In this document: in pieces, positions 4,947-23,213 of the stretch | How the letters are laid out: each line of letters begins with the position of its first letter | Numbering within the stretch: the first letter of the stretch is position 1 | NCBI GenBank assembly: GCA_903884235.1 | Contig: CAISEB010000018.1 | Coordinates: forward strand, 1-64,000 | Reading direction: 5' to 3' | Source: an uncultured Pseudomonadota bacterium | GTDB lineage: Bacteria; Pseudomonadota; Gammaproteobacteria; Steroidobacterales; Steroidobacteraceae | Length of the DNA stretch: 64,000 bases | Notes under the pieces: model-generated | Told to the model about the DNA's origin: nothing | Databases searched by the model: none | Seen by the model: only the letters and a program-made list of their open reading frames with translations | Translations under genes and position numbers: made by a program

Positions 4947-7136
4947 ATGAGCACCGAGCAATCTACCGTGCATGGAGTACGTCCCTTGCAATCCACGCGT
5001 ATTCTCGGCCGCGCCTCTGGCGTCATCGCGCTGATCCTCGCGTCCGCCGCGGGGGCTGCGGGGGCCGCGGAGGCACCGTGGCTCGCCGAACGCATCGAAG
5101 TCACGGCCACCCGGGTTCCGGAGCCGGTCGACAACGTCCCCGCCTCGATCAGCGTCGTCACCGGCGATGAACTGCGCGCGCGCGGGGCAAACGACCTGCG
5201 CACGGCACTGAGCCTGTTCGCGGGCGTCGAAGGGTCCCCCGATGGCGATGTCGGGCCGGCCGGCTCGGTGCCGTCGCTGTGGGGCCTGCGCGAGGCCGAC
5301 GCATTCCTGCTCGTGGTCGATGGCGTCCCCTGGGGCGGTGCGTTCAATCCCGCCACCCCCTCGGTGGACCTGACCGGCGTCGAGAAGATCGAGGTGCTGC
5401 GCGGCGCGGCGCCGGTGATGTTCGGCGCGACATCCTTCGTCGGCGTCATCCATGTCATCCACTACGCCGCCGGCAAGACACCGACCACGGTGGGCGTCAC
5501 GGGCGGCATGCACGGCAGCGCTGGCGCCTCGCTGACGGCGAGCCTGCCGTCGCTGGGCGACTACGGCCAGTCCTTGACGCTGAACTTCGAGAAGCACGGC
5601 TTCGCCGAGGATCGGACCGAGTTCCGGCGTGCCCATGCGCTATATCGAGGCGAGACGCACGTCGGCGCTGCGCGATTCCACATCGATGGCGACGTGTCGA
5701 TCCTACCGCAGGATCCGTCCGGCAACTACCTGCTCCTGGACGGTACGCAGCTTCACCCGGAGCTGGGAGTCGACACGAACTTCAATCCCGCGGGCGCCAA
5801 GCTCAACCAGAAGCGATACCACCTCGTCGTGGGCCTGGACGGCAAGAGTTCGCTCGGCGATTGGGCCGCGACGCTCGCGTTCACCCGCACGCAGGACGAC
5901 ATCCTGCGTGGCATGTTGCGCGGCAATGCGTTCGTGGCACCACCCGACGCGGGTGTCGGCGACGGCTTCCAGGCGGACGGCTTCACTCAGCAGCGGTCGT
6001 TGACCGACGTCTACTTCGATGCGCACGTGACGACAGCCCTGACGTCGGCCATCAACCTGACGTACGGCATCGATCACCTGCACGGCGAAGGGCGCGAGGA
6101 TGCGATCAACTTCGGCTACTGCATCGATCAAAACGGCATCGAGCAGGCCTGTGACGGCGCCCACCACTCGGACGAGATCGTCCACTCGACGGACAAGCGT
6201 GACTTCAGCGGCGCGTACGCCCAGGCGGATATCAAGGCGACTTCGACGCTCGACCTCCTGCTTGGAATACGCCTGAACCACACGCGCGAGACGGCGACCG
6301 GCCTTGCGATCGACAACACCGGCCCGGCTCCCGTGGTCTCATTCGACGGCGCCGACGGCCGGACGACGACGCGCGTCAGCGGCCTGGCCGGCGTCAGCTG
6401 GCACGCGTGGACCGAAGGACGCAACGGCCTCACGCTGTACGCAGACTGGCGCGACAGCTTCAAGCCGCTGGCGATCGACTTCGGGCCGGAGGCCGAGGTG
6501 CAGGTTCTGAAGCCCGAGACGGCGAACAGTTATGAGCTCGGCCTCAAGACGCAGCTGTGCGACGGCAAGTTCGATCTCGATGCCAGCGTCTTCCAGATGG
6601 ATTTCAAGAATGGCCTGACCTATGCGCCGGATGGCACCGGCAGCTTTGTCAGGGCAAACGCCGGTGCGTCGCGCTTCAAGGGGTTCGAGGTCGAGACGAC
6701 CTATGAGCTCCTGGCGGATCTGCGCCTGAGCGCCCACTACGCGAATCATGACGCCCGGTTCACGTCGTACCTGCTCGCGGATGGAACGGACGTCTCCGGC
6801 AAGCATCTGGAGATGTCGCCAACCCAGACCGGCGGACTCGGCTTGCTCTTTGGCAACCCGTCGGGGACGACGGGGTCGCTCGTCGCGACCTACGTCGGGG
6901 AGCGCTACCTCGACAAGGCGAACGATGTCCGGGTCGGTGGTTACATGACCCTCGATGCCGCGATCGGCCGCAAGATCGGGCGGTACGGCGTGCGCCTCAG
7001 CGGATATAACCTGACCGACCGCCGTGATGCGACGTCGCTGAGCGACCTGCACGGCTCGGTCACCGTCACCGGGACGGAAGGATACTACCGGATGCCCGGG
7101 CGGACTGCGCTTGCAACCGTGACGATCGACTTCTGA
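4947..7136 (+). CDS. TonB-dependent outer-membrane receptor
   Basis: A 729-residue TonB-dependent receptor that should import a chelated or large ligand across the outer membrane using TonB energy. A signal peptide spans about residues 1-41 (ILASAAGAAGAAEA). The TonB-box region and plug follow (IEVTATRVPEPVDNVPASIS near 48-67; VEKIEVLRGAAPVMFGATSF further on). A long beta-barrel then ends in aromatic Phe (TVTIDF), as expected for barrel insertion. The start at 4947 is the in-frame ATG that gives a proper signal sequence. The frame is open much further upstream, through the terminator, but that part is not coding. It heads a same-strand group with DUF2946 and SCO1 genes, so copper or another metal complex is a plausible ligand. 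This is inferred from context only. Confidence 0.88.
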   Translation: MSTEQSTVHGVRPLQSTRILGRASGVIALILASAAGAAGAAEAPWLAERIEVTATRVPEPVDNVPASISVVTGDELRARGANDLRTALSLFAGVEGSPDGDVGPAGSVPSLWGLREADAFLLVVDGVPWGGAFNPATPSVDLTGVEKIEVLRGAAPVMFGATSFVGVIHVIHYAAGKTPTTVGVTGGMHGSAGASLTASLPSLGDYGQSLTLNFEKHGFAEDRTEFRRAHALYRGETHVGAARFHIDGDVSILPQDPSGNYLLLDGTQLHPELGVDTNFNPAGAKLNQKRYHLVVGLDGKSSLGDWAATLAFTRTQDDILRGMLRGNAFVAPPDAGVGDGFQADGFTQQRSLTDVYFDAHVTTALTSAINLTYGIDHLHGEGREDAINFGYCIDQNGIEQACDGAHHSDEIVHSTDKRDFSGAYAQADIKATSTLDLLLGIRLNHTRETATGLAIDNTGPAPVVSFDGADGRTTTRVSGLAGVSWHAWTEGRNGLTLYADWRDSFKPLAIDFGPEAEVQVLKPETANSYELGLKTQLCDGKFDLDASVFQMDFKNGLTYAPDGTGSFVRANAGASRFKGFEVETTYELLADLRLSAHYANHDARFTSYLLADGTDVSGKHLEMSPTQTGGLGLLFGNPSGTTGSLVATYVGERYLDKANDVRVGGYMTLDAAIGRKIGRYGVRLSGYNLTDRRDATSLSDLHGSVTVTGTEGYYRMPGRTALATVTIDF

Positions 7137-7519
7137 TGTGACGAGACCTGTAGCCATATGCAGCACCCTTCCTTAGGGCGCCGCCGATCGCTACCGTCAA
7201 TCGAATGACCCTGTGGCTCGGCGCACACGTGATGCGCACCGCCGCGTGGGACCTGTGCCATAGGCACGGCCCCTGCCGATGTGATCCTGCGGATGGCGTG
7301 ATAGACCGCATCCGTGTCATGGACGTCGCCATTGCCATTCCCGGCCAGTCCCGCGGGGGGACGGGAGGGCACACCGGTACGATCTGTCGTCGCCGCGCCG
7401 AGAGGTGCTCCCAGATCGCGACCTGAAGGCCCCCCTTTCGGCAAGCCACTACAGGGTCTCCCCCCTTGAGGCGCCCCTGATCGGTGACTTATAAGAGAGT
7501 GACGGAGTAATCTGCCTTG
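7137..7519. other. Intergenic region with no recognised gene
   Basis: About 380 bases between the TonB receptor and the first DUF2946 gene. The region is less protein-like than its flanks and contains homopolymer tracts (a C-run near 7430 and a run of C near 7460). Overlapping frames on both strands show no domain. An AT-richer patch just before the DUF2946 gene (around 7485-7500, acttataaga) is the best candidate promoter. Confidence 0.45.
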
Positions 7520-10186: not shown

Positions 10187-10489
10187 ATGGCACTGCACAG
10201 TCCGTTTCCCGTGCTCAGCCGCTTCATTACATCGGGTGGCACGATCGATGTCGGCCGTATCGACCGGATCGATTGCGCCGCCATCGCGACCGACGCCAAC
10301 ACGCTCTGGGTCGCACTGACCCGTCGCGACCAGGAGGATCTCATGGACCTGCTGGCACGGCTCAATGACACGCTCGACCGGTGCCTCGCGACCGGCGAGC
10401 ACGTCGACGAGCTCGATCGGTCGGCGTACTCCGACGAGGCGCTACCGCGCCTCGACGATCACGCTTCGCTCCGATTGCTCACCGGCTGA
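10187..10489 (+). CDS. Small protein of unknown function
   Basis: A 100-residue protein I do not recognise. It starts at an ATG with CAGGAG at good spacing, 76 bases after the second DUF2946 gene on the same strand, and ends 11 bases before a hairpin. It is acidic and apparently cytosolic: no signal peptide, no membrane helix and no cysteine cluster. Residues about 50-80 (RDQEDLMDLLARLNDTLDRC) look helical and could form a dimerising coil. Context would tie it to the metal locus, but nothing in the sequence gives a function. Confidence 0.5.
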   Translation: MALHSPFPVLSRFITSGGTIDVGRIDRIDCAAIATDANTLWVALTRRDQEDLMDLLARLNDTLDRCLATGEHVDELDRSAYSDEALPRLDDHASLRLLTG

Positions 10490-10499
10490 CGGGGAAGGC

Positions 10500-10537
10500 G
10501 GCGACTGGGTCGGGAGAGGTGTCCCGCCTCAGTCGCC
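10500..10537 (+). terminator. Hairpin at end of metal locus
   Basis: Inverted repeat with arms beginning ggcgactg and ending cagtcgcc, extended inward with two mismatches to ggga/tccc around a short loop. It begins 11 bases after the 10489 stop. No T-run follows, so the terminator role is tentative. Confidence 0.4.
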
Positions 10538-10749
10538 GGTCCACTCGCGGCCCATCGAATCGCTTGCAGCGCTTTGCCCGCCGGGTTGAGCGTCACTGAG
10601 CGCTGACCCACTCCGCCAGAGCGGCATCCACCACGCAGGACAGGTTCATCCTGCGCCAATTCGCCAGCGGCGTCGTGCCGGACCAATGCCCATGCCAGCA
10701 GGGATTTCCGAGCGCCCCGCATTTCCGAAGGAGGGACGACGTGTTGGGC

Positions 10750-12957
10750 TCAGGCGGAGGGTATTCGCGCAGCGCGGCTTGCGTCGGCGCGCACCTGATG
10801 GGTCGGGTCGGCGCTGTGGGCGCCCGTGGGTGCGGATCCCTTGGCGGCGATTGCCTTGAGTACCCGGTCGGGCAGCATCGGCAGGCGCAGCAGTCGCACG
10901 CCCGCTGCATCGAAGACTGCGTTCGCGAGGACCGCGCCCGTCGTGATTATCGCGGGCTCCCCGCCGCCCTGGGGCGCCAATTCGTTGTTCGGCACGAGCA
11001 TGGCCTCGATCCTGGGCGCCGCGCTGAATCGGGGTAGCTCATAGGAGTCGAAGTTGCGATCCAGGATTTCACCACCCCGGAATTGAAGCTCCTCGCTCAG
11101 CGCGTAGCCGAGGCCCATCATCAGGCCGCCTTCGATCTGCATCCTGGCACCCTCGGGGTTGACGACGATCCCCATGTCCTGGGCGCAGACGATCCGCACG
11201 ACGGCGATGCGCCCGGTCGCCGCATCCACCTTGACCTCGGCCATCGTCGCGACGTAGGTGCCGGCGTCAATGCAGCAGGCCAGTCCGTAACCTCGGCCGC
11301 CGCCTTTGGCCACGGTCGGCCACCCGAAGACCCGGGCGGCGGCCTTCAGCACCCGGATCATCCTGGCGTCGGTGAGATTGCGTATCCGGAATTCGAGCGG
11401 ATCAACCTTGAGCGCTGCGGCCATGATGTCAATCTGCGATTCCGCCGCGAAGACGTTCATGTTCGCGCCAGGGCCCCGCCAGGGGCCAACAGCGAAAGGA
11501 TGCAGGTCCGTGGTCGTCGCGCCTGGCGCGTCCGAGTTCTTGCCCGCTGAGCGGATTCGAATGTTGGGAATGGCGTACGACAGCGTTGTGCCACGGGACC
11601 CGGCCGCATACACCCGGTAGTCCCACGCCAGAACCTTGCCGGCCCGATCCACTCCCGAGGTGATCTTCACGATGGCGGCGGGATCAAAGGTGTCATTGAA
11701 GAACTCCTCCGCCCGCGTCCAGGCGACCTGCACTGGCACCCGCACAATCTGGGCCAATCGCGCAGCCTCGACGGCCTGTCCGAATGCACTCTTGCCGCCG
11801 AAGCCACCGCCCAACAGCGGCGTGATCACGCGCACATTCGCTTCACTCAGGCCGAGCGCCGTGGCGATCCCGGCACGGGCCGGGAACGGCGTCTGCGTCG
11901 ATGCCCACACCGTCATCCGGCCATCCCTGAAGTCGGCCAATGCCGCGTGAGTCTCGAGCGCAGCATGGGCAACGTAGCCCTTCTGGAACGTCGTCTCGAA
12001 CGACTGCACGGCGCTCGCCTGCGCGACGACCGTGTCGCCGCTGGCCGCGACCTCCGTGAAACCGGCCGCCTTGGCGATCAGGTGATCAAAGATGGTGTCC
12101 GGATCTGGCGTGGCCGCCGACTGCCGCCAGGTCGCGCGGACGAGTTCCAGGGCCTTGGCGGCGGACTCCGGGTCGGCATGCAGGACGGCCACCAGGTCAT
12201 CGCGCGCGACGACCGTGACACCCGCGAGTCCTTCAGCGGCGGAGGTGTCCAGCGTCAGCCGCGCCGCCCCATGCATGGGGGGGCGCAGCACGCGTGCATA
12301 CAGCATCCCGGGCAGCCGGATGTCGGCGGCGTATCGCGCTGTTCCAGTCACCTTTTCCAGCGCATCCAGGCGCTGCGGAGATGTGCCCATCACGTTGAAG
12401 TCCGCGGCAGCCCGCAAGACCGCCTTGCGGTCCACGACGCGCGTGATACGCGCACCCCTCGACAGCTCCGCGTAGCTCACCGACCGGTTCGGCTCGCCCG
12501 CAACCGAGACGAGGCCATCGCGCACGACCAGTCGCTCCAGCGGAACACCGAGCCGCTCGCCGGCCAGCGTCATCAGTACGAGGCGTGCCTGGGCGCTCGC
12601 GGCTCGCAAGGCGGGACCGAACATCCGGGTCGTGAGTGAACCGAACGTTCCCATGTCCCACGGGCAGCGATCCGTGTCCCCCAATACCATGTCGATCGAG
12701 GCAAGTTGGACGCCAAGCTCCTCGGCCACCATCTGCGCCTGGGAGGTCAGAGCGCCCTGGCCCATCTCGATCTTGCCGGAGAACACCGTGACGCGGCCGT
12801 TCTCGCCAATCACCAGATAGGCATTGAAATCCTCTGGATACAGGCGCTTGCCCTCGTCGGCCAGGAGGAACTCCGGCGTCATGCTGACCAGCACGACCAC
12901 GCCACCTCCGACAAGCTGCAGGAAGGCCCTGCGATCGAGCCCTGAACGGAGGCTCAC
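10750..12957 (-). CDS. Molybdenum hydroxylase large subunit (isoquinoline 1-oxidoreductase / aldehyde oxidase type)
   Basis: A 735-residue molybdopterin-binding subunit of the xanthine dehydrogenase/aldehyde oxidase family, which hydroxylates aldehydes or N-heterocycles with water as oxygen donor. A Tat-type leader is visible (LDRRAFLQLVGGGVV near residue 7). The cofactor loop GGGFGGKSAFG and the late GGGEPAI motif, with the proposed catalytic Glu, are present, as are EMGQGALTSQAQM and CAQDMGIVVNPEG. The start is a GTG at 12957, overlapping the TGA of the Fe-S subunit (GTGA). The frame is open several hundred bases further upstream, but there it merely shadows the Fe-S gene. Expected location is the periplasm. 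No cytochrome subunit gene is adjacent, unlike the second system at 57690-61197. Confidence 0.88.
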   Translation of the reverse strand: MSLRSGLDRRAFLQLVGGGVVVLVSMTPEFLLADEGKRLYPEDFNAYLVIGENGRVTVFSGKIEMGQGALTSQAQMVAEELGVQLASIDMVLGDTDRCPWDMGTFGSLTTRMFGPALRAASAQARLVLMTLAGERLGVPLERLVVRDGLVSVAGEPNRSVSYAELSRGARITRVVDRKAVLRAAADFNVMGTSPQRLDALEKVTGTARYAADIRLPGMLYARVLRPPMHGAARLTLDTSAAEGLAGVTVVARDDLVAVLHADPESAAKALELVRATWRQSAATPDPDTIFDHLIAKAAGFTEVAASGDTVVAQASAVQSFETTFQKGYVAHAALETHAALADFRDGRMTVWASTQTPFPARAGIATALGLSEANVRVITPLLGGGFGGKSAFGQAVEAARLAQIVRVPVQVAWTRAEEFFNDTFDPAAIVKITSGVDRAGKVLAWDYRVYAAGSRGTTLSYAIPNIRIRSAGKNSDAPGATTTDLHPFAVGPWRGPGANMNVFAAESQIDIMAAALKVDPLEFRIRNLTDARMIRVLKAAARVFGWPTVAKGGGRGYGLACCIDAGTYVATMAEVKVDAATGRIAVVRIVCAQDMGIVVNPEGARMQIEGGLMMGLGYALSEELQFRGGEILDRNFDSYELPRFSAAPRIEAMLVPNNELAPQGGGEPAIITTGAVLANAVFDAAGVRLLRLPMLPDRVLKAIAAKGSAPTGAHSADPTHQVRADASRAARIPSA

Positions 12958-14080: not shown

Positions 14081-14632
14081 ATGGTCACGAGGCCGATGCA
14101 GTCCGGACGGAGTCTCTACATTGTTCGTACCGATCGCTGGTATATCGAGCGGATCGTCTGGTTACTGGCCGGCATCGTGCTGTCGACGAGCTCGCTCCTC
14201 GCATTCTTCGTCAATCCATACTTCATCCTGTTCGTGAGTCTCAGCGGACTCGTTTCGATCAACGTCGCCGTCAATGGACTCTGTCCCGTCGGAAGCGTGC
14301 TCAAGTTCTTTGGGTTCTCGGGCGCGCTGGAGAGCCCCCGCTCCGCAGCAGGCCCGTTCTACCGCATGCAGACGGACGCGTGGTTCCTCGAGCGCCGCAT
14401 CTACATGACGGTCGGCGTCAATGTTCTCATCGGATCGACGCTCGTGCTCCTGCACTCGCTGTGGTGGTGCTTGTTCACGGGATTCGTTGGCGTCGCAATG
14501 TTGTGGTTCGCATCGACCGGCTTCTGCATCCTTGCCAACCTGCTCTACTGGATCGGCGCAGAACCCCGCCTGAAGCCACCGCGCGATTCAGCCGATGGCC
14601 GCACCGTGGACGCGTTGCGCCGCATTCCGTAG
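14081..14632 (+). CDS. Inner-membrane protein with two DUF2892-like repeats
   Basis: A 183-residue membrane protein made of two similar halves. Each begins with an aromatic/charged strap (YIVRTDRWYIERIVWLLAG; YRMQTDAWFLERRIYMTVG) followed by two hydrophobic helices, and each has the DUF2892-like Cys near the end of the second helix (NGLCPVG; TGFCILA). Single DUF2892 units occur fused to rhodanese domains (YgaP) or alone; here the unit is duplicated. The start at 14081 has AGGAGAG before it; upstream in-frame sequence is arginine-rich and not protein-like. No partner gene is adjacent on its strand. The biochemical role is unknown; a sulfur-related or small-molecule membrane function would be a guess. 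Confidence 0.7.
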   Translation: MVTRPMQSGRSLYIVRTDRWYIERIVWLLAGIVLSTSSLLAFFVNPYFILFVSLSGLVSINVAVNGLCPVGSVLKFFGFSGALESPRSAAGPFYRMQTDAWFLERRIYMTVGVNVLIGSTLVLLHSLWWCLFTGFVGVAMLWFASTGFCILANLLYWIGAEPRLKPPRDSADGRTVDALRRIP

Positions 14633-14895
14633 CAACTGCCCGGGCCGATCCCGGACTCGCTTTCAGGAGACGAGCCGCGCAATACCCGGCCTACGCCGGC
14701 GGCAGCCCCTGGGATCGACGACACTGGATGGAGATGACCGTCTGGCGTGCAGGCGCACTTGAGCCGGGCTTTCCTCGCAAGCGGTCAGGTTCAGTGCCCG
14801 GGCTCGTCTCGGGCCCGCCGCGCCGGAACGCACATCGGAAATCGCCTGCGTGGCTACGCCTGCGTCCGGCTGCGCGGGACCTCAGGCATCCACCG

Positions 14896-15900
14896 TCAGA
14901 TCGACAGCACCGTCTCACGACGCGCCGGCATCTCCGCGAGGCGGCCGTTCCATGTCGCCTCGAGAAAGGGACGCACGATGTCCAGTGGGGTCGTGATGTA
15001 CGGCCGCCCGTCAAAATCCGCGCGCGCATGCTGCTGCCGTTCGAGGATGTCCCGATCCTGGTCGGCGACCCGCGCGAGCAGCGGCCATGCCAGCGCACGA
15101 ACGAGCCACGACGGCGCCCACCGCCCTCGCACATGGAGCGACGCGTAGATCCGTGTCGTGCCTTTGGTTTCTGGCGTGCAGCAGAGCGTGATCCACGCCG
15201 CCCATCCGGCGGCGTAGGCGAATTCGAGCTGGGTGACGCAGGCGCCCGAGACGTGCGCCCGTTCGAGGGTGCGCCTGGACTCGAACAATCGGTACAACAG
15301 GCCCGATTGGCTCGGCTGGCCCGTGTAGTCGACATGAAACCCGTCGTCCACGACGCTCACGGAGGCCTGGATGGGACGCCTCGCGGACGCGCGACGCACG
15401 AGCCCCGCGTGGATCGTGTGCGTGTGCAGTGCGTCCAGGAAGTTCTCCTGCACGTCGATGATCGGCGCGTTCCAGGTCGCCCGCCAGCGAAACCGACATT
15501 CGTTCTCTTGCAACGCCTTAATTCTGGACGGCAACAAGACCTCTGGAGTCAACGAGACCCAAACCAGACCCTGGTGTTCAATGACCGAAAGCCGTGTCAC
15601 ACGAGGCGTGCCCAGCGGTTGTCCGTCGCGCGTGCCGGGCATCGCACGGCAGTGACCCGCCGCGTCGAACGCCCAGCCGTGGTAGCGGCAGACGATGGTG
15701 TCGGAGTCCACGTGGCCGATCGACAATGGCACACCACGGTGCGGGCAGCGGTCCTCGAGCGCGGCGATTCCGCCGGAGTTCGGCCGGAACAGGACGATGG
15801 GGACGCCGCACAACACGATTCGAAGTGGCGTGCGGCCCACGTCGCGGGATTCGGCGGCAACAAACGCATGCCGATCGAAAAACGCCCGAACCCCGGTCAT
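14896..15900 (-). CDS. Rieske non-heme iron oxygenase (last gene of seven-gene operon)
   Basis: A 334-residue oxygenase of the aromatic-ring-hydroxylating type. The N-terminal Rieske [2Fe-2S] ligands are complete: Cys52 and His54 in RCPHRG, Cys71 and His74 in CRYHGW. The mononuclear iron motif is also complete: Asp156, His159 and His164 in ENFLDALHTHTIH. It should activate O2 to hydroxylate, desaturate or demethylate a substrate, with electrons from a reductase not encoded here. Its ATG overlaps the stop of the GNAT-like gene (ATGA, 15897-15900). As last gene of the operon it probably performs a late tailoring oxidation on the product. The frame continues far upstream on this strand as a shadow of the preceding gene, so only 15900 is a credible start. 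Confidence 0.87.
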   Translation of the reverse strand: MTGVRAFFDRHAFVAAESRDVGRTPLRIVLCGVPIVLFRPNSGGIAALEDRCPHRGVPLSIGHVDSDTIVCRYHGWAFDAAGHCRAMPGTRDGQPLGTPRVTRLSVIEHQGLVWVSLTPEVLLPSRIKALQENECRFRWRATWNAPIIDVQENFLDALHTHTIHAGLVRRASARRPIQASVSVVDDGFHVDYTGQPSQSGLLYRLFESRRTLERAHVSGACVTQLEFAYAAGWAAWITLCCTPETKGTTRIYASLHVRGRWAPSWLVRALAWPLLARVADQDRDILERQQHARADFDGRPYITTPLDIVRPFLEATWNGRLAEMPARRETVLSI

Positions 15901-17009
15901 GGCTGGAAGCGCCTCATGAAGGGCTCGCCAATCCGGTGTGCCAGCTGGGCGAGCATCGCGATGGCGCGCTGGCGGGGCCGCGCGAGGTGGCGGGTGTAGA
16001 CAGCGCTGTATTCGATGATCCCGACGCCACCTCGCAGTCTCTTGAAGTGGCCGGCCCCCGCGCTCAGGTTGATCTGCTGGCCCCGGGCAGCGGCCTGCGC
16101 GTAGACCGCCCCGATCGCCAGCCGATACAGACCCTCGCGCTGCGGCCGGTGCGTATCGTAACCGACGATCGGCGCCGTGACGGTGTCGCCGCTGCCGAAC
16201 GTGCCCACCACCACCTGCAGCGTCCCGTCCGCTGCGCGGTAACCGAGGAGACGCAGCAGGCCCGCCACGTGCCACGTGCGCAGGAAGGCGGCCGAGTAGG
16301 CAGGATTCAGGTGCGAGTACTTGCGCAGGTACAGCAAGTCGTACAAATGGGCCGCGCGCTCGAAGTCCACCGCTGCCCAGTGTGTTGCGGGCGCAGTCTC
16401 GAGTGTCGTCGATCGGTGCAGTCTCAGGTCCCGACGCAGGTTCGCAGGACGGACGGCATCGGCATCGATGCGGTCGTAGAGGTACACCAGCCTGCTCGGT
16501 ACGAGCAGGCAACCGGCGCGTCGCACTGCATCGAGCCATCGCCCTGTCTGGCGGGCATTCAGGGAGCGAAACCAGATCGCGTGGTCGGGCCAGCGCGAAA
16601 CCGCCTCGTCGAGGTATCGAGTTGCGGCGGTCGGCACGACGGAGGGATAGAGGTTCGTCGACAGCAACCAGTTGTTGACGATGACCGCATCGTCGATGCG
16701 CGCCCGCATCAGGTAGCCGCCCATGGCTGTGCACAGGCTGCCGAGCGGTCTACTCAGCCAGCGCGGTCCGATCCGCCGCAGCTCGTCGTCGGCGTAGCGC
16801 ACGTAGGTGGTGTACGGGGAGCATACCCACGCGTTCTCCGGCTCGGAGCAATTGACCGTGACGGGTAGCCGTCCCTCGCCCTCCCCGATCGACCCGACCG
16901 TCGTGGACAGGTTTCCGATCGAGGCGACGGAGTCGCTCCCGACGCCGAGAAACGCGGTCACGTCCGCGGCGAAGGAATTCGCATCGTTGACGGCTCGGTC
17001 CTCGGTCAT
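15897..17009 (-). CDS. GNAT/FemAB-like acyltransferase
   Basis: A 370-residue protein that resembles GNAT-fold transferases, especially in its C-terminal half: LYDLLYLRKYSHLNPAYS, then APIVGYDT, a GLYR segment and NLSAGAGHFKRLRGG near the end, which is like the FemAB/GNAT C-terminal signature. Such enzymes transfer an acyl or aminoacyl group from CoA, ACP or tRNA to an amine. It is cytosolic, with no signal peptide. The ATG at 17009 overlaps the ATP-grasp stop (ATGA); an earlier in-frame ATG at 17033 is less likely. It sits between an ATP-grasp ligase and a Rieske oxygenase, so acylation of an amine intermediate in the same pathway is inferred. The family call is by pattern recognition and is moderately sure; the substrate is unknown. 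Confidence 0.6.
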   Translation of the reverse strand: MTEDRAVNDANSFAADVTAFLGVGSDSVASIGNLSTTVGSIGEGEGRLPVTVNCSEPENAWVCSPYTTYVRYADDELRRIGPRWLSRPLGSLCTAMGGYLMRARIDDAVIVNNWLLSTNLYPSVVPTAATRYLDEAVSRWPDHAIWFRSLNARQTGRWLDAVRRAGCLLVPSRLVYLYDRIDADAVRPANLRRDLRLHRSTTLETAPATHWAAVDFERAAHLYDLLYLRKYSHLNPAYSAAFLRTWHVAGLLRLLGYRAADGTLQVVVGTFGSGDTVTAPIVGYDTHRPQREGLYRLAIGAVYAQAAARGQQINLSAGAGHFKRLRGGVGIIEYSAVYTRHLARPRQRAIAMLAQLAHRIGEPFMRRFQP

Positions 17010-18157
17010 GGCACCAGGGCCTCGCCGTCCCATTCCAGATCGCGCGTGGACGCGGTCCGCAATGAACAGCGGTGGCGCAGAGCAAGCGCCATGAACGCCG
17101 CGATGTCGGCCGCGGCACCGATGGCCGGGGCGATATCGCCCGGCACCGCGAGCACGTCACGGGCACGGCCCCAATCCAGTCGCCAGCGATGCAGGTCCCC
17201 GCGGTGGATCGCGCGCGGCAGACCCGCGGCGAGCATCACCGGAGCGAGCATCGCCGGAGTGGACAGTCGCGGACGCAGGGTGTCCGCGACTCTTCCGAGC
17301 ATCGCCTCGGGCAGCGGATCCGTCCGGTCGAACAGGTGGACGCCGCTGATCGCCCGCGGATTGCATTCGAGCGGCACGACACCACCGCCCATGCGCTCGA
17401 CCCAGTCGAAGGAGATCTGCCCCGTGTAGCCGAGTCGTTCGACGATCCGGCCGACGGCAGCCTCCACCGCCGGGACGGCGCGGGGCTCGAAGTAGTAGCT
17501 GCTGCTCCCCTGCAGGCGGTAGGTCGGTTCATACGTCACGTGGGCCGTGACGCGACCCGCGACCGCAGTGCTATACGAACACAGTTCGCGACCCCGCTGG
17601 AACGACTGAACGACCCACGGCCCCGCGACGGGCAGCGGACGACCCATCGCCGGAATGCCCTGCGGATACAGCCGGACGAAGACGCCAAAGCGCGAGTATT
17701 CGGGCTTGAGCACGACCGGGCGCCCGTTCGCCCAGTCGCGCGCGTCCGAGAGGTTCGTGACCAGCGCGGATTCTGGCACCTCGACGCCGCAGCTTCGTGC
17801 AAGCACCAGGAATTGGAACTTGCTATGCAGCGCTCGCATCGCATCGAATGGCGCGACGAAGACCGAACACGTGGCCGCGAGGCGATCCCGGATCGCGCTG
17901 ACGTAGAACGCCTCCTCGCAGGTCGGCAGCACGAGGTCGATCCGCTCCTCCTCGACCAGGTCCACGAGCGCGCGCGCGAAGGCGGGCAGATCGGCGCGCG
18001 GCGGCGGCAGTCGCATCGTCTTGAGGACGCTGCGCGACCAGCTGGAAATCCTGCACGGCCCGCAATCCGCGATCGAGACGTCCCAGCCCGCCGCCGAGAA
18101 GCGGCGCGCATGGTCCAACGCGACTGGCGCCCGCCCGCCGAGAATCAGGACACGCAC
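17006..18157 (-). CDS. ATP-grasp ligase
   Basis: A 383-residue ATP-grasp protein. It starts MRVLILGGRAPVALDHARRF, a pre-ATP-grasp Rossmann-like domain. The ATP-binding region follows (RPVVLKPEYSRFGVFV, WVVQSFQRGRELCSYS), with the metal-binding Glu/Asn late in the fold (VVPLECNPRAISGVHLF). Members join a carboxylate to an amine or thiol through an acyl-phosphate. The GTG at 18157 is chosen because GAGGGGAG lies seven bases upstream and it restores the canonical N-terminus; it overlaps the preceding gene by 13 bases. Together with the adenylating enzyme upstream and the acyltransferase downstream it suggests amide-bond formation in the pathway. The substrates cannot be read from sequence. Confidence 0.82.
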   Translation of the reverse strand: MRVLILGGRAPVALDHARRFSAAGWDVSIADCGPCRISSWSRSVLKTMRLPPPRADLPAFARALVDLVEEERIDLVLPTCEEAFYVSAIRDRLAATCSVFVAPFDAMRALHSKFQFLVLARSCGVEVPESALVTNLSDARDWANGRPVVLKPEYSRFGVFVRLYPQGIPAMGRPLPVAGPWVVQSFQRGRELCSYSTAVAGRVTAHVTYEPTYRLQGSSSYYFEPRAVPAVEAAVGRIVERLGYTGQISFDWVERMGGGVVPLECNPRAISGVHLFDRTDPLPEAMLGRVADTLRPRLSTPAMLAPVMLAAGLPRAIHRGDLHRWRLDWGRARDVLAVPGDIAPAIGAAADIAAFMALALRHRCSLRTASTRDLEWDGEALVP

Positions 18158-19440
18158 GTCGGGGCTCCCCTCACGCGCCGTTGCTTGCCGGACGCGGGCA
18201 CCAAGGCCATCTCCTCCAGCTCGATCGACGGGGGTTCCGCGCCCAGCGATCGGGCCAGCCTCGTGCATTCATCGACGAGGTGCCGGGCATCGGCCCCGGC
18301 AACGGTCGGTCGCAGGCGGATGACCCATGCGCCGCGCTCGTGCTCGGCCAGCTCGAAATCCTCGAGTGGTGCGACGGTGCGCACGATCAGGCGGGTCAGT
18401 AGGTCGGGGAACACCGGCACGTCCGTTCCGTTCGTTCCGCGCAACCAGAGCACGTCATCGAGGCGGCCGTCCACGGCCTCGAGCGCGGTCGCGGCCCGTC
18501 CGCAGGGGCACGGCGTCGCGCGCAAGCGGAGCACGTCATTGAGGCGGTAGCGGATGACCGGCTGGCTGCGGCGCCAGAGATCCGTGACGATCGGCACGAA
18601 CCTGGAGTGCGCGGCGTCCTGCCACTCGCGCTCGACGAGCAGGAACGGCTCGTTCAGGTGGATCGTGCCGTGCTCGCAGGAGATCCCGAGCAACCCCTCG
18701 GTCGCCTGGTAAATCTGCTCGATCGGCACGCCAAAACGTCTTTCCAGCGCGGCGCGATCCAGGTCGTCGAGCACCTCGGCGACCGAGATCACCCGTTTCG
18801 GCCGCAGGCGGGATTCGGTCTCGCCCAGCAGCCGGAGCGTGCGGGCCGGGGCGACGAGCACCGTCGGCGCAAATACGCGCACCTCCTCGCACAGGTCCGT
18901 CCAGCGGCGCGACTGGTCGAAAAATCGAAAGGTCACGCGCAATGCGCCGACGGTGTCGTAGAGCGGCCCCCCGGCCCGGAACACGAACGCCACCCGCTCG
19001 CGACTCGCAAGTCCTCCGCGGAGCAGCTTGGCCAGCAGGGTCCCGGCCCATTGCGCGCGCTCCCGGCCGCTGACCAGGAAGATCCCACGGCTACCCGACG
19101 TGCCGGTGGACAGGCCCACGGTGATGCCGCGCCACGACGCGCGGAAATCGCGCGTCCGTTCCGCTTCGAGCGCGATTCGAGAGACTTCGGCAAGCGGGGC
19201 CCCGAGCGTGTTGATCGTGTCGAACTGCGCCATCCAGCTCGACTTGGTCATGACGGGCCATTCACCGAACGGCACCTGCCGCAATCCCCGATAGAAGGGC
19301 GATTCCGCCGTCACCTGGCGCAGGAACTGCTGCAACCAGCGCGACTGGAGCGCCTCCAGTCGCGACGTGCTCGTTAGCCTGTCGACCCGGCGCGCCCGGG
19401 CATAGGCGGCGAGGAACGTTCCTGCGTCGTGCCAGCTCAT
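18145..19440 (-). CDS. Adenylate-forming enzyme, F390-synthetase / phenylacetate-CoA ligase-like
   Basis: A 431-residue member of the adenylate-forming superfamily in the compact form related to coenzyme F390 synthetase and PaaK. The phosphate-binding loop is STGTSGSRG (111-119). IYQATEGLLGISCEHG supplies the ATE-like motif, and VIRYRLNDVLRLR the Tyr-x-x-x-Asp region. CPCGR is a Cys pair also seen in PaaK-type enzymes. It should activate a carboxylate as acyl-AMP for transfer to CoA, an amine or an intramolecular nucleophile. The ATG at 19440 overlaps the stop of the MBL gene (ATGA). In ole pathways the adenylating enzyme (OleC) forms a beta-lactone from a beta-hydroxy acid; this protein is from a different branch, so such a role is only a hypothesis. 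Confidence 0.8.
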   Translation of the reverse strand: MSWHDAGTFLAAYARARRVDRLTSTSRLEALQSRWLQQFLRQVTAESPFYRGLRQVPFGEWPVMTKSSWMAQFDTINTLGAPLAEVSRIALEAERTRDFRASWRGITVGLSTGTSGSRGIFLVSGRERAQWAGTLLAKLLRGGLASRERVAFVFRAGGPLYDTVGALRVTFRFFDQSRRWTDLCEEVRVFAPTVLVAPARTLRLLGETESRLRPKRVISVAEVLDDLDRAALERRFGVPIEQIYQATEGLLGISCEHGTIHLNEPFLLVEREWQDAAHSRFVPIVTDLWRRSQPVIRYRLNDVLRLRATPCPCGRAATALEAVDGRLDDVLWLRGTNGTDVPVFPDLLTRLIVRTVAPLEDFELAEHERGAWVIRLRPTVAGADARHLVDECTRLARSLGAEPPSIELEEMALVPASGKQRRVRGAPTCVS

Positions 19441-20270
19441 CGGCGGGCCTCGCGGCAATGTGCCGGCACCAACCTGACCGGCCCGCCGCGGGCGGCGAGC
19501 GCGTGCAGCGCCGCGAGCGATCGCCGGTAGGCCTCCGTGTCACCCAGCATCCCGGTCGCCCACCGCGGCGGTGGCAGGTTGTCGAGGATCGCCCGGCTGG
19601 ACCAAGCTGCGTCGCCGACCAGGAACACCCACTCGGACGGGCCGCGGAAACACACGCCGAAATGCCCCGTGGCGTGGCCCGGCAGCGGCACCGCGAGCAC
19701 GGAGCCGTCGCCGAACAGGTCGTGCCCGGCGTGGAATGGCGCGAGATCCGGCGACAGACGCTCGACGCCGGATTGATCGTAGAAGTTGATTCGCCGGTCG
19801 ATGTACTGGGGAGCGAGCGCCGGCAGGAGCCCATGGGCAAGCGCCGTCAGCCGGTGGCGGCCATGCAGCTCGTGCCAGGCGGTGCGATCGCACCACACGC
19901 GTGCCGCCGGAAAGTCAGCCAGTGCGCCCACATGGTCCCCATGGAAATGGGAAATGACGACGTGCGCCACCGATGCCGCCTCGATGCCGCGCGCGTGCAG
20001 CTGCGCGGCGGCGGACTGCGAAGGACGCCAGCGCACCGGGGTCACGGCACGGTAGAGCCTCTCGGGCCACCGCCGCGTCGCGTCCATGAAGGCCTGGCCG
20101 TAGCCGGTGTCGAACAGGATCCAGCCATGCCGGGGATGGCGCAGCAGCGCGACGAGCGACGGGAACTCGCATGCACGCCAGCTCGCTCCGATCCGGGATG
20201 ACGCCTCCGGATGCAGGCAGTGCCCTGTTTCGAACAGGTGCCAGTCGAGGGGGATCACGTCGTTCTCCAC
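19437..20270 (-). CDS. Metallo-beta-lactamase-fold hydrolase
   Basis: A 277-residue MBL-fold enzyme with the zinc motif SHFHGDH (107-113). Later ligands are in PLPGHATGH and LVGDAAW, and the final His in VPAHCRE. The layout resembles the AHL-lactonase/quorum-quenching branch (HFHGDHVG, PLPGHATGH), which opens lactones, although thioesterases share the fold. It has no signal peptide and is presumably cytosolic. It overlaps the upstream reductase by 16 bases and the downstream adenylating gene by 4. Where the ole pathway has OleB, this operon has an unrelated MBL hydrolase. It could release the acyl product from a thioester or open a lactone; sequence alone does not decide. Confidence 0.83.
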   Translation of the reverse strand: MENDVIPLDWHLFETGHCLHPEASSRIGASWRACEFPSLVALLRHPRHGWILFDTGYGQAFMDATRRWPERLYRAVTPVRWRPSQSAAAQLHARGIEAASVAHVVISHFHGDHVGALADFPAARVWCDRTAWHELHGRHRLTALAHGLLPALAPQYIDRRINFYDQSGVERLSPDLAPFHAGHDLFGDGSVLAVPLPGHATGHFGVCFRGPSEWVFLVGDAAWSSRAILDNLPPPRWATGMLGDTEAYRRSLAALHALAARGGPVRLVPAHCREARR

Positions 20271-21232
20271 CAGGTCGCGTAACGGTGGAGCCCCTCGTCC
20301 AGGGAGATGCGTGGCGTGTATCCGAGGCGTTGGCGCGCGGCGGCGATCGTCAGTGTCTGCGAGTAGCCGAGCAGCCCGATCCCGTAGCTCGTGACGCGCG
20401 GCTCCGCCGCCGCGCGACGGGCCCGGGCGAGCCCCTCGACGGCCGTCGCGCCGCAGCGGGCGACGAATCGCGGGATGCGGACGTACCGCGTACGCACGCC
20501 GATCGCACCGAACAGCCGGCTGAGCAGATCGTGCACCTGCACGGGCTCGCCGTTGGTGATGTTGAACGCGGCACCCTCGACGTCACGCGGAGCCTTGAGC
20601 GCGAGCCGGACCGAATCGACGACGTTGTCGACGTACGTCACGTCGGTCCACGCCCGTCCGCCGGCCGGCAACGGAAACCATCCGCGCCGCGCGATCGCGA
20701 CCAGACGCGGGACGATCGCCGTATCGCGTGGCCCGAACACCGCACGCGGCCTCAGGATGACCGGACCGAGCCCGCGATGCGCCACTACCCGCGTCTCCGC
20801 GACCCACTTCGTCTCTGCGTAATCGGTGATCCAACGGGACGGAGGGACGAATTCCTCGGCGACGTCGATCTGGTCGCGCCAGCGGAAATAGATGCTCGGC
20901 GAGGAGATGTGGACGAAGCGCCGCACGGACCCGGATGCGTCGGCGGCCGCCAGCAGCCGTTCGGTCGCGACGACGTTCTGGCGCCAGAAGGCGTCGCGCG
21001 GGCCCCAGGGCGAGGCCATCGCCGCGCAGTGCACGATCGCCTCGCATCCCTTCACGAGCACGCTCAGGTCGTCCGTTACGAGATCGGCGGGGATGGCCGC
21101 TGCGCCGGCGGACGTCGCGGCCAGGCGGGACCAGTCGCGGCCCGAGGCCACGACCCGATGGCCGTGCTCCCCGAGCGACGCGGCCACGTGGGATCCGATG
21201 AAGCCGCTGGCGCCAGTGACGAGGACGCGCAT
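20255..21232 (-). CDS. OleD-like NAD(P)-dependent beta-hydroxy acid dehydrogenase
   Basis: A 325-residue extended short-chain dehydrogenase of the 3-beta-HSD/OleD type. It has the nucleotide loop GASGFIG (7-13), catalytic Tyr138 and Lys142 in DYAETKWVAE, and the active-site Ser in HISSPSIYF. The segments AAMASPWGPRDAFWRQNV and TDVTYVDNVVDS closely follow OleD, which reduces the 2-alkyl-3-ketoacid made by OleA to the 3-hydroxy acid. The ATG at 21232 lies two bases after the ketosynthase stop; the upstream in-frame extension shadows that gene. Being next to a KAS III-like enzyme, reduction of its 3-keto product is a well-supported inference. The cofactor (NADH or NADPH) is not obvious. Confidence 0.82.
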   Translation of the reverse strand: MRVLVTGASGFIGSHVAASLGEHGHRVVASGRDWSRLAATSAGAAAIPADLVTDDLSVLVKGCEAIVHCAAMASPWGPRDAFWRQNVVATERLLAAADASGSVRRFVHISSPSIYFRWRDQIDVAEEFVPPSRWITDYAETKWVAETRVVAHRGLGPVILRPRAVFGPRDTAIVPRLVAIARRGWFPLPAGGRAWTDVTYVDNVVDSVRLALKAPRDVEGAAFNITNGEPVQVHDLLSRLFGAIGVRTRYVRIPRFVARCGATAVEGLARARRAAAEPRVTSYGIGLLGYSQTLTIAAARQRLGYTPRISLDEGLHRYATWWRTT

Positions 21233-21234
21233 GA

Positions 21235-22239
21235 TCAGATCCGCAGCACGGCGCCGCCAAGCGACAGGCCAGCACCCGTGCCGATGAGCGCAACGAGGCG
21301 GCCGCTGCGGATCCGGCCATCGCGGCGACCGGCATCGAGTGCCGTCGGGATCGATGCGGAGATCTGGTTGCCGCGCGTGGCGAGCGTCATCACCAGGCGC
21401 TCGACGGGTATCGCGAGCATGCTCGCGAGGTGGGCGATCGCAAGCCCACTTGCCTGATGAGGCACCCACGCGTCGATATCGCCGGGCCGCACGCCGGCGC
21501 GACTGAACAGCGTGTCGATGAACTGCGGCAGCCGATCGGCGGCGAGGCGGTAGGTCGCCTTGCCCTGCATCTCAAAGTACGTGCCGGCCATGAACGCGTC
21601 GAGGTCGTGCCGCGGGTGCAGGCCGGAGCCACCGGCCCGGACCTGGCAGTATTCGGCGCCCTCCGCATATGTCTCGAGGTGGGTTGCGAGCAGGGCTGGT
21701 CCTGATCGGCGTGCTGCGCCGACGACCACCGCGGCAGCACCGTCGCCGAACAATCCGGCCGTCGCAGGGTCGTCGAGGTTGAGGCCCGCCGTCGCGACTT
21801 CGCTCGCGACGAGGAGCACCCGACGGAACCGCCCCGTCGCGATGCATTGCGCGACGAGGTCGAGCGCGACCAGGAAGCCGAGGCAGGTCGCATTCACGTC
21901 GAACGCCGGAATGCCGCGGTCACCGAGGCCGAGGGCGCGCTGGAGGAAGACGGCCGAGCACGGGATGGCCTGGTGCGGCAGGCTGCCGACCGCGATGATC
22001 GCATCGAGTTCCCGAGCCCCGACACCGGCCTCGAGGAGCGCGGCGCGCGCGGCGGTCGCACCCATGGTGATCACGTCCTCGCCCGCCGCCACGAACGACC
22101 GGACGTCGACGCCGGTCCGATCCCGGATCCATCCGGGCCGTTTGCCCAGCCGTCGATCGATCTCCTCGGAAACCACCCGCGTTCCGGGCGTGTGAGTACC
22201 GGTGCCGAGGATCTCCAGCGCAATGTTGTTGGCGTCCAT
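21235..22239 (-). CDS. KAS III-like (FabH/OleA-type) ketosynthase, first gene of the operon
   Basis: A 334-residue thiolase-fold condensing enzyme with the complete KAS III triad: Cys119 in FDVNATCLGF, His261 in VPHQAS and Asn291 in TRGNQISASIP. The glycine-rich GLFGDGAAAVVV is also present. It should form a carbon-carbon bond between an acyl thioester and a malonyl- or second acyl thioester, giving a beta-keto product. It is too short and too isolated for primary FabH of a fab cluster; no acpP, fabD or fabG is nearby. It begins the overlapping operon and is followed by an OleD-like reductase. This supports a specialised role akin to OleA or FabH-like starter enzymes of secondary metabolism. 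A perfect TATAAT lies about 115 bases upstream on its strand. Confidence 0.87.
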   Translation of the reverse strand: MDANNIALEILGTGTHTPGTRVVSEEIDRRLGKRPGWIRDRTGVDVRSFVAAGEDVITMGATAARAALLEAGVGARELDAIIAVGSLPHQAIPCSAVFLQRALGLGDRGIPAFDVNATCLGFLVALDLVAQCIATGRFRRVLLVASEVATAGLNLDDPATAGLFGDGAAAVVVGAARRSGPALLATHLETYAEGAEYCQVRAGGSGLHPRHDLDAFMAGTYFEMQGKATYRLAADRLPQFIDTLFSRAGVRPGDIDAWVPHQASGLAIAHLASMLAIPVERLVMTLATRGNQISASIPTALDAGRRDGRIRSGRLVALIGTGAGLSLGGAVLRI

Positions 22240-22339
22240 CCTGCGTTTCGAAGCTCCGAACCACCAAACGTGCCCCGAGGTTGGGCGGTGTCCCCATCAG
22301 TTGCAAAACAACGTGCGGCGTTCGCGCCGGGCGCCACGA

Positions 22340-22376
22340 CTGGTATCATTAGATTATACTTTGCCAGGAGTCAGGT
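22340..22376 (-). promoter_or_regulatory. Divergent promoter region of the ketosynthase operon and XRE regulator
   Basis: The minus strand carries a perfect -10 hexamer TATAAT (plus-strand attata at 22353-22358) facing the ketosynthase operon, giving a leader of about 105 bases. No good -35 is found 17 bases upstream (TTCATA). On the plus strand, tatcat (22344-22349) or tatact (22355-22360) could serve the XRE gene. The two promoters therefore overlap, and binding of the regulator here could control both directions. Confidence 0.45.
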
Positions 22377-23213
22377 ATGAAAGGCTCTTCGATTCTGGTG
22401 CAGGGCGTGAAGGCCCGGCTGCGTGCCCAGGGCATCACATACCGCGAACTTGCCCAGCAGCTGGGCGTGAGCGAGCCCACGATCAAGCGGGACCTCGCGC
22501 GCGGCAACTTCACGCTGAGTCGGCTTGACGCGATTTGCGAAGTCCTTGGCGTGAGCGTGACGGAGCTGCCGACGGCCCCCGGTACCATCGCGCTGACGGA
22601 ACTGACCGAGCAGCAGGAATTCACGCTGGTCGAGCATCCCCGGCTGCTGCTCGCGACCTACCTGATCATCAACGACTGGACGTTCGACGACATCGTCGCC
22701 ACGTACCAGTTCGACGAGAACTCGCTGATCGATGCGCTGCTCAAGCTAGACCGGATCAAGGTGATCGAGTACCGGCCGCCGCGGCGCATCCGAAAACTCA
22801 CGGCCCGCAACTTCAGCTGGCGCCGGGACGGCGCCGTTCAGGCCTATTTCATCCGCCGCGTGATCCCCGAGTTCTTCGATTCCCGGTTCGATGCGCTTGG
22901 TGATGAGATGCGCTTCGTCGGCGGTCGGCTTTCCTCGGCTTCGATGCTGAGGATCCAGGCATCACTGCGACGCGTCGCTGCGGAATTCGAGCAGTTCGCG
23001 CAGCAGGACGCCCGCCTCCCCATCGGCGACCGTAGCAGCTGCTCGGCGGTACTCGCCTTCCGATCCTGGGAGTACTCTGAGTTCGCAAGGCTGCGTCGGA
23101 CGGAACCATCGCCGGGGCCCGAGCACCAGGGCACGTCGCGCCGACAAGGGTCCGAAGGCCGGATTCCGCCGGGAGTGCGAAATCACACGAGGCCAGCGCG
23201 CGGGACGCGCTAG
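22377..23213 (+). CDS. XRE-type transcriptional regulator divergent to the operon
   Basis: A 278-residue regulator with an N-terminal helix-turn-helix of the XRE/Cro type (ITYRELAQQLGVSEPTIKRD, about 20-39, then a second helix region LSRLDAICEVLGVSV). A long C-terminal part of about 170 residues includes TEQQEFTLVEHPRLLLATYL and WRRDGAVQAYFIRRVIPEFF, perhaps a ligand- or dimer-forming domain. The last 35-40 residues (after FARLRR) are arginine/proline-rich and may be an unusual extension. AGGAG lies six bases before the ATG. It is transcribed away from the ketosynthase gene across a shared promoter region, so it is the obvious candidate regulator of the seven-gene operon. Repressor or activator cannot be decided from sequence. 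Confidence 0.8.
   Translation: MKGSSILVQGVKARLRAQGITYRELAQQLGVSEPTIKRDLARGNFTLSRLDAICEVLGVSVTELPTAPGTIALTELTEQQEFTLVEHPRLLLATYLIINDWTFDDIVATYQFDENSLIDALLKLDRIKVIEYRPPRRIRKLTARNFSWRRDGAVQAYFIRRVIPEFFDSRFDALGDEMRFVGGRLSSASMLRIQASLRRVAAEFEQFAQQDARLPIGDRSSCSAVLAFRSWEYSEFARLRRTEPSPGPEHQGTSRRQGSEGRIPPGVRNHTRPARGTR

Follow-up and report, generated by a model that had tools for sequence, protein, structure and literature searches.

A seven-gene operon of an uncultured Steroidobacteraceae bacterium belongs to a widespread gene cassette with a conserved four-gene core and a variable tail

The window analysed here is a stretch of 64,000 nucleotides from an uncultured Steroidobacteraceae bacterium (Gammaproteobacteria; assembly GCA_903884235.1, contig CAISEB010000018.1, positions 1 to 64,000). 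On its minus strand, seven genes between 14896 and 22239 form one operon. They encode a ketoacyl synthase III (KAS III)-type ketosynthase, a short-chain dehydrogenase/reductase (SDR), a metallo-β-lactamase (MBL)-fold hydrolase and an adenylate-forming enzyme, here called the core, followed by an ATP-grasp ligase, a tandem GCN5-related N-acetyltransferase (GNAT) protein and a Rieske oxygenase, here called the tail. The seven-gene set is not unique to the window. It is part of a widespread cassette for which no pathway, product or characterised cluster with this gene order was found in the open-access literature searched; a description elsewhere is possible. With about even probability, the operon is a horizontally mobile biosynthetic cassette in which a four-gene core is combined with exchangeable tailoring modules to build a lipo-amino acid or a short lipopeptide.

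Operon structure and co-conservation of its genes

The original prediction had taken the seven genes to be a single transcript and a single pathway. All seven consecutive overlapping frames and their junctions were recovered at the positions it gave, and the core is co-conserved across loci, which confirms one operon that probably also represents one pathway. ATGA overlaps are found at 15897-15900, 17006-17009 and 19437-19440, and a gap of 2 bases (21233-21234) separates the ketosynthase and SDR genes. The adenylase and ATP-grasp frames overlap by 13 bases, given an ATP-grasp start at GTG 18157, and the SDR and MBL frames by 16 bases, given an MBL start at GTG 20270. With an alternative MBL start at GTG 20258, the overlap would be the 4 bases GTGA; this codon agrees better with where a homologue (L016) begins and is more likely to be the true start. 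The GC content at third codon positions lies between 0.81 and 0.87 for all seven frames.

Genome contigs were scanned with a seven-sequence alignment of the adenylase, and of the 562 loci confirmed, the 80 best were used as a census. This sample is biased towards Paenibacillus and relatives of the query, and its counts are not population frequencies; gene presence was called by profile searches with score thresholds of our own choosing. Homologues of the ketosynthase were present at 73 of the 80 loci, the SDR at 76, the MBL protein at 77, the ATP-grasp ligase at 55, the GNAT protein at 34 and the Rieske protein at 8. Among the 69 loci with enough flanking sequence, the full core was complete in 65, core and ATP-grasp occurred together in 49, core, ATP-grasp and GNAT in 28 and all seven genes in 7. 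The core exceptions lacked either the MBL gene (L045, L052) or the ketosynthase gene (L034, L090).

With shorter contigs included, all seven genes were found at 8 of the 80 loci and, beyond the census, in further plasmid records, so that the seven families were not seen to be rarely together, an outcome that would have spoken against the original prediction. The seven-gene loci belong to Dyella, Rhodanobacter, Undibacterium, Pseudoalteromonas, Shewanella, Arcobacter and Paenibacillus. The gene order of the window was exactly reproduced in Dyella (L020), Rhodanobacter (L033), Undibacterium (L078), Pseudoalteromonas (L030) and Arcobacter (L079), and the two Shewanella loci showed the same order plus two further downstream GNAT genes (L081, 14915-17211; L093, 15046-17261). 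The commonest order, mainly in Firmicutes, was ketosynthase, ATP-grasp, SDR, MBL and adenylase, either as such (20 loci) or with a GNAT gene after it (20 loci). Paenibacillus castaneae (L054) contains two different ATP-grasp genes (5957-7138 and 10308-11468), one in each of the usual positions.

In a core tree with 78 tips, the window clustered with the Dyella and Rhodanobacter loci L020 and L033 with a support of 1.0. The pairwise distances of ketosynthase, SDR, MBL, adenylase, ATP-grasp and GNAT proteins correlated across loci with r between 0.81 and 0.91, and none of 500 permutations attained the observed value in any of the 15 family pairs. From the intactness of the core (65/69) and this correlation, the association of the genes exceeds chance.

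A gene for an XRE-type regulator with a helix-turn-helix Pfam domain lies divergently from the operon on the plus strand (22377..23213). This regulator is common to the window, L020, L033 and L078, and a homologue was divergent from the ketosynthase gene at 5 of the 80 loci. A promoter-like site on the minus strand (22353..22381) with 10/12 consensus matches is located between the two divergent transcription units and extends into the first bases of the regulator's coding sequence. It was the sole match in the scanned region 14600-22500, compared with a mean of 0.3 in shuffled sequences. Elsewhere in the window, ARAGORN reported a tRNA at 2469-2557 that has a four-base anticodon and no assigned type and is probably spurious.

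Distribution across genomes and plasmids

The window genome (4.12 Mb in 59 contigs) was compared with 59 relatives, and the adenylase exceeded the curated cut-off of its family TIGR02304 in 1 of these 60 genomes, namely in the window genome only. The cassette can therefore be considered patchy. In an even sample of the phylum, 7 of 398 genomes exceeded this cut-off, the window genome included. The six other loci above the cut-off and three loci below it have SDR and MBL genes adjoining the adenylase gene, and the 20 lower-scoring loci that were inspected (3.5-3.8 kb each) contain neither. Judged by record titles, the cassette occurs in several bacterial phyla.

A tblastn search with the adenylase matched 90 plasmid records, 40 of which were listed. 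In 16 plasmid neighbourhoods the core genes were together in 14; of the remaining two, a Pseudomonas Leaf58 plasmid record has the cassette genes scattered and pMPPla107 of Pseudomonas amygdali carries the adenylase alone, with the other core genes not within 9 kb. Among phage records, 2 matched the adenylase, both weakly (E 6e-6 and 8e-6).

In E. coli, 672 of 5426 complete genomes contain DNA that covers at least 80% of the core; 670 of the matches are chromosomal and 2 lie on a plasmid-labelled record. The E. coli cassette consists of the core together with PAP2, hydroxylase-like and desaturase genes, and in strain LF82 it is situated between narI and the tyrosine tRNA genes/purU. In the plasmid-labelled E. 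coli record (L013, NZ_CP141085.1; L125), narGHJI, the cassette, purU, ychJ and rssA are arranged as in the LF82 chromosome. This "plasmid" is likely a chromosomal segment or an assembly error.

The patchy occurrence, both among the relatives and in the phylum, and the two deviating plasmids could be taken to mean that unrelated neighbours are carried together by chance or by hitchhiking. This is contradicted by the co-conservation of the genes: their order is kept in distant lineages, their distances are correlated, the genes overlap and two of them are fused in one case. Chance neighbourhood is thus very improbable.

Core enzymes and their probable chemistry

The original prediction had described the beginning of the operon as a KAS III followed by an OleD-like reductase and had placed both in an Ole-type pathway with OleB and OleC replaced. 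The enzyme classes hold. The ketosynthase (21235..22239, 334 amino acids) matches the Pfam family ACP_syn_III, and the best NCBIfam match of the SDR is OleD. The ketosynthase scored best on PRK07204 (323 bits, under the cut-off of 402), and FabH models were its next best matches (TIGR00747 with 229 bits, under the cut-off of 292.1). Its catalytic triad Cys119-His261-Asn291 is of the FabH kind (CHN) and was kept in 80/80 cassette ketosynthases. The nearest solved structures are MxnB (4v2p, 192 bits) and CorB (4yuc, 182 bits) from myxopyronin and corallopyronin synthesis, and FabH-type entries reached at most 169 bits.

OleA and PpyS are reported to employ a catalytic glutamate at the dimer interface (OleA E117 at the site of PpyS E105), MxnB and CorB have V94 in its place and both are assigned to the FabH clade (PMC4578411). 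In the alignment of the window ketosynthase with MxnB, this site is Ile92, and it is Ile or Leu in 80/80 cassette ketosynthases; OleA-type chemistry is therefore unsupported. The cassette shares the CHN triad and the hydrophobic residue with MxnB and CorB. In contrast to them, its seven genes include neither a polyketide synthase nor a carrier protein, and a free-standing reductase, hydrolase and adenylase follow.

The SDR (20255..21232, 325 amino acids) is an extended, OleD/HpnA-like enzyme with Tyr138 and Lys142, both of which were kept in 84/84 homologues. It reached 191 bits on the OleD model, far below the cut-off of 580. The MBL-fold hydrolase (19437..20270; Lactamase_B) resembles lactonases of acyl homoserine lactones, but stayed below the equivalog cut-offs of AttM (74.9 vs 390 bits) and AiiA (30.4 vs 375 bits). 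Its HxHxDH metal site (H108, H110, D112, H113) was kept in 85/85 homologues. The adenylate-forming enzyme (18145..19440, 431 amino acids) is PaaK-like and passed the TIGR02304 cut-off with 353.1 vs 251.9 bits, in accordance with the F390-type adenylase that had been predicted; its Lys419 was kept in 86/88 homologues. The names of the best NCBIfam matches of the adenylase, the ketosynthase and the ATP-grasp ligase (TIGR02304, PRK07204 and PRK06849) carry no pathway: 'F390 synthetase-related', 'beta-ketoacyl-ACP synthase III' and 'hypothetical protein'. A gene annotated as coenzyme F390 synthetase is listed in a published table of transposon mutants from Pseudomonas syringae pv. actinidiae (PMC9823363).

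In an Ole-like route, two acyl chains would be joined head to head by the ketosynthase and the product reduced by the SDR; the adenylase would make a β-lactone and the MBL enzyme open it before the tail decorates it. The cassette does resemble OleABCD in that one operon combines a condensing enzyme of the thiolase fold with an OleD-like SDR, a hydrolase and an AMP-forming enzyme, and the four steps are the same in kind (condense, reduce, adenylate, hydrolyse). Furthermore, MxnB and CorB are reported to join two chains (PMC4578411, PMC5724707). The cassette differs from OleABCD in its PaaK/F390-like AMP-forming enzyme, in the MBL protein in place of OleB and in its amino-acid-type tail. Membership in the Ole pathway was rejected: the OleA glutamate is missing, the SDR does not reach the OleD equivalog level and homologues of OleB and OleC are absent from the seven genes. 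In addition, nothing in the window genome or its 59 relatives exceeded the cut-off of OleD or of NF006720, which we take to be the OleA family. On its defining features the Ole-type reading fails, and an Ole-like route is unlikely as a whole. For the ketosynthase itself, the residues allow a two-chain condensation of the MxnB kind as well as a FabH-type extension.

Exchangeable tails and the proposed pathway

The original prediction had expected an amide-forming part, and this agrees with the ATP-grasp fold and the FemX-like tandem-GNAT protein. The ATP-grasp ligase (17006..18157, 383 amino acids) is PRK06849-like with 318 bits, under the cut-off of 406. Its AlphaFold model (pLDDT 95) gave PylC as best Foldseek match (E 1.1e-16). 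K151, which we take to be the catalytic Lys, and E264 and N266, presumably the metal-binding site, were invariant in 27/27 sequences. The fold, the Lys and the E-x-N site are shared with the amino-acid ligases PylC, RizA and 3vot; the identity to them is only 11-17%, and PurK-like folds score nearly as well. Fold neighbours and the pairing with the GNAT protein suggest an amino acid as substrate.

The second tail gene, counted as the GNAT-like gene in the original prediction, does encode a GNAT fold, but apparently not an ordinary acetyltransferase. Its product (15897..17009, 370 amino acids) has two GNAT domains in the FemX arrangement, in the shape of FemX/Sbb17, and looks like a FemX-type enzyme dependent on aminoacyl-tRNA. 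With FemABX, Sbb17 and MprF it shares the tandem GNAT fold, a similar size and an invariant Lys in an FK motif (Phe322-Lys323; Lys323 in 31/31). It differs from them in its low identity (9-14% in structure alignments), in the lack of a Pfam FemAB match and in its usual pairing with an ATP-grasp or DUF3419 gene. The scans of NCBIfam and Pfam gave no family match at all, and none of the 3 chains returned by a profile search against PDB sequences was a convincing relative (best E 0.087). FemABX-type transferases use a catalytic Lys, which is Lys305 in FemX and Lys329 in DhpH-C. In hhalign, Lys323 was placed on the FK Lys of PF02388 proteins, but with a probability of only 14%; the end-point offset to 1ne9 (353 to 335) agrees with Lys323 lying on the FemX Lys.

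The oxidation step that had been foreseen is represented by a Rieske oxygenase of the VanA_C type (14896..15900, 334 amino acids; Rieske and VanA_C Pfam domains), whose nearest solved structures are SxtDIOX and SxtT. The residues of the Rieske cluster (C52, H54, C71, H74; CxH/CxxH) were kept in 10/10 homologues. Of the residues presumed to bind the mononuclear iron, D156 and H159 were found in 9/10 and H164 in 10/10. No reductase or ferredoxin partner is present among the seven operon genes; the remaining genome was not searched for one. In a Paraburkholderia plasmid cassette (L014), the Rieske gene (11627-12647) is split across two frames.

ATP-grasp and tandem-GNAT enzymes act as a module. 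In a Cardiobacteriaceae metagenome-assembled genome (L075:4309-6549) both are fused into a single protein of 746 amino acids, and two Deinococcus plasmids carry an overlapping ATP-grasp/GNAT gene pair with no core genes in the 15 kb read. A GNAT homologue was found in 12 plasmid records, and 10 of these also appear among the 40 records listed in the adenylase search. The ATP-grasp gene can also be exchanged: between adenylase and GNAT, a DUF3419 gene takes its place in Shinella (L104:9283-10365; PF11899 with 146 bits) and in Rhizobium (L167:7298-8371; by annotation). The rule that GNAT never occurs without ATP-grasp, which held for 34/34 census loci, is broken by these two loci and by G753, where GNAT stands alone in the 13 kb read. 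Likewise, the rule that Rieske never occurs without GNAT (8/8 census loci) is broken by L164-L166, which have core, ATP-grasp and Rieske genes and no GNAT match anywhere in the three genomes.

Among 369 genomes of the class, a GNAT homologue was found in 3, the window included. In the other two (L173, L174), a DUF3419 gene directly adjoins it (360 and 357 bits) outside any adenylase cassette. In L173:6658-9948 a metallophosphoesterase gene follows; in L174:1-3652 the contig ends within the GNAT gene, and close by lie a GT4 gene of lipid type and a phosphoesterase-looking gene. Both neighbourhoods look like a lipid-remodelling locus. The NCBIfam scan gave no name to the DUF3419 proteins beside GNAT genes. 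The DUF3419 family presumably contains BtaA, which adds a 3-amino-3-carboxypropyl group to diacylglycerol. If these proteins are of the BtaA type, ATP-grasp and DUF3419 enzymes alike would provide the FemX-like enzyme with an amino-acid unit.

Other tails adjoin the same core. At least two of the PAP2, fatty-acid-hydroxylase-like and desaturase genes were present at 13 of the 80 census loci, and in L092 ATP-grasp, GNAT and PAP2 co-occur. UDPGT-like (L069) and GT21 (L055) glycosyltransferases were also found, as well as a sulfotransferase, divergent in L018 and also annotated in L019 and L170; these tails fit a lipid with free hydroxyl groups. RtcB and DUF2812 (L057), GH18 (L088) and a family-less protein (L171) downstream do not speak for such a lipid.

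The lipid-like tails also bear on a decarboxylative FabH-type start, in which an acyl thioester would be extended by two carbons and a 3-hydroxy fatty acid released and re-activated, the product being a membrane lipid or a signal and not a secreted lipopeptide. This reading is supported by the FabH-like triad and model scores of the ketosynthase, by the lipid tail of the E. coli-type cassette and by the neighbours of the DUF3419-GNAT pairs in L173 and L174. On the other hand, an MBL enzyme plus a separate adenylase would be an expensive means of making a simple 3-hydroxy acid, and the nearest solved ketosynthases are not FabH. It is a serious alternative, though one we consider rather less than probable.

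In the favoured reading of a mobile core with tailoring modules, the FabH/MxnB-type ketosynthase would form a β-keto acyl product, the SDR would reduce its keto group, and hydrolysis of a thioester or lactone by the MBL enzyme would give the free acid that the PaaK/F390-like enzyme adenylates for transfer. The core thus most likely yields an activated fatty-acid-derived scaffold, which the tail of the window most likely extends with amino acids and oxidises. The amino-acid units would be attached without a nonribosomal peptide synthetase (NRPS): the ATP-grasp ligase may use ATP to form one C-N bond, the FemX-like protein may attach a further amino acid that is probably delivered by aminoacyl-tRNA, and oxidation of the product by the Rieske enzyme may give a lipo-amino acid or short lipopeptide.

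A conserved cassette without a named product in open-access papers hence recurs across phyla, including 672 complete E. coli genomes. Its modular tails make the chemistry testable, as the same core with different tails should reveal a common scaffold. More tentatively, the cassette might represent a previously undescribed class of NRPS-independent lipopeptide or aminolipid pathways, in which a mobile core makes a common scaffold in many bacteria, among them a considerable fraction of E. coli, and lineages swap the head-group modules, here ATP-grasp, aminoacyl-tRNA-dependent FemX-like ligase and Rieske enzyme, elsewhere with DUF3419 (BtaA-type) in place of ATP-grasp. Should the tail indeed combine an ATP-grasp step with tRNA-dependent ligation on a lipid, it would offer a way to make lipopeptides without NRPS machinery.

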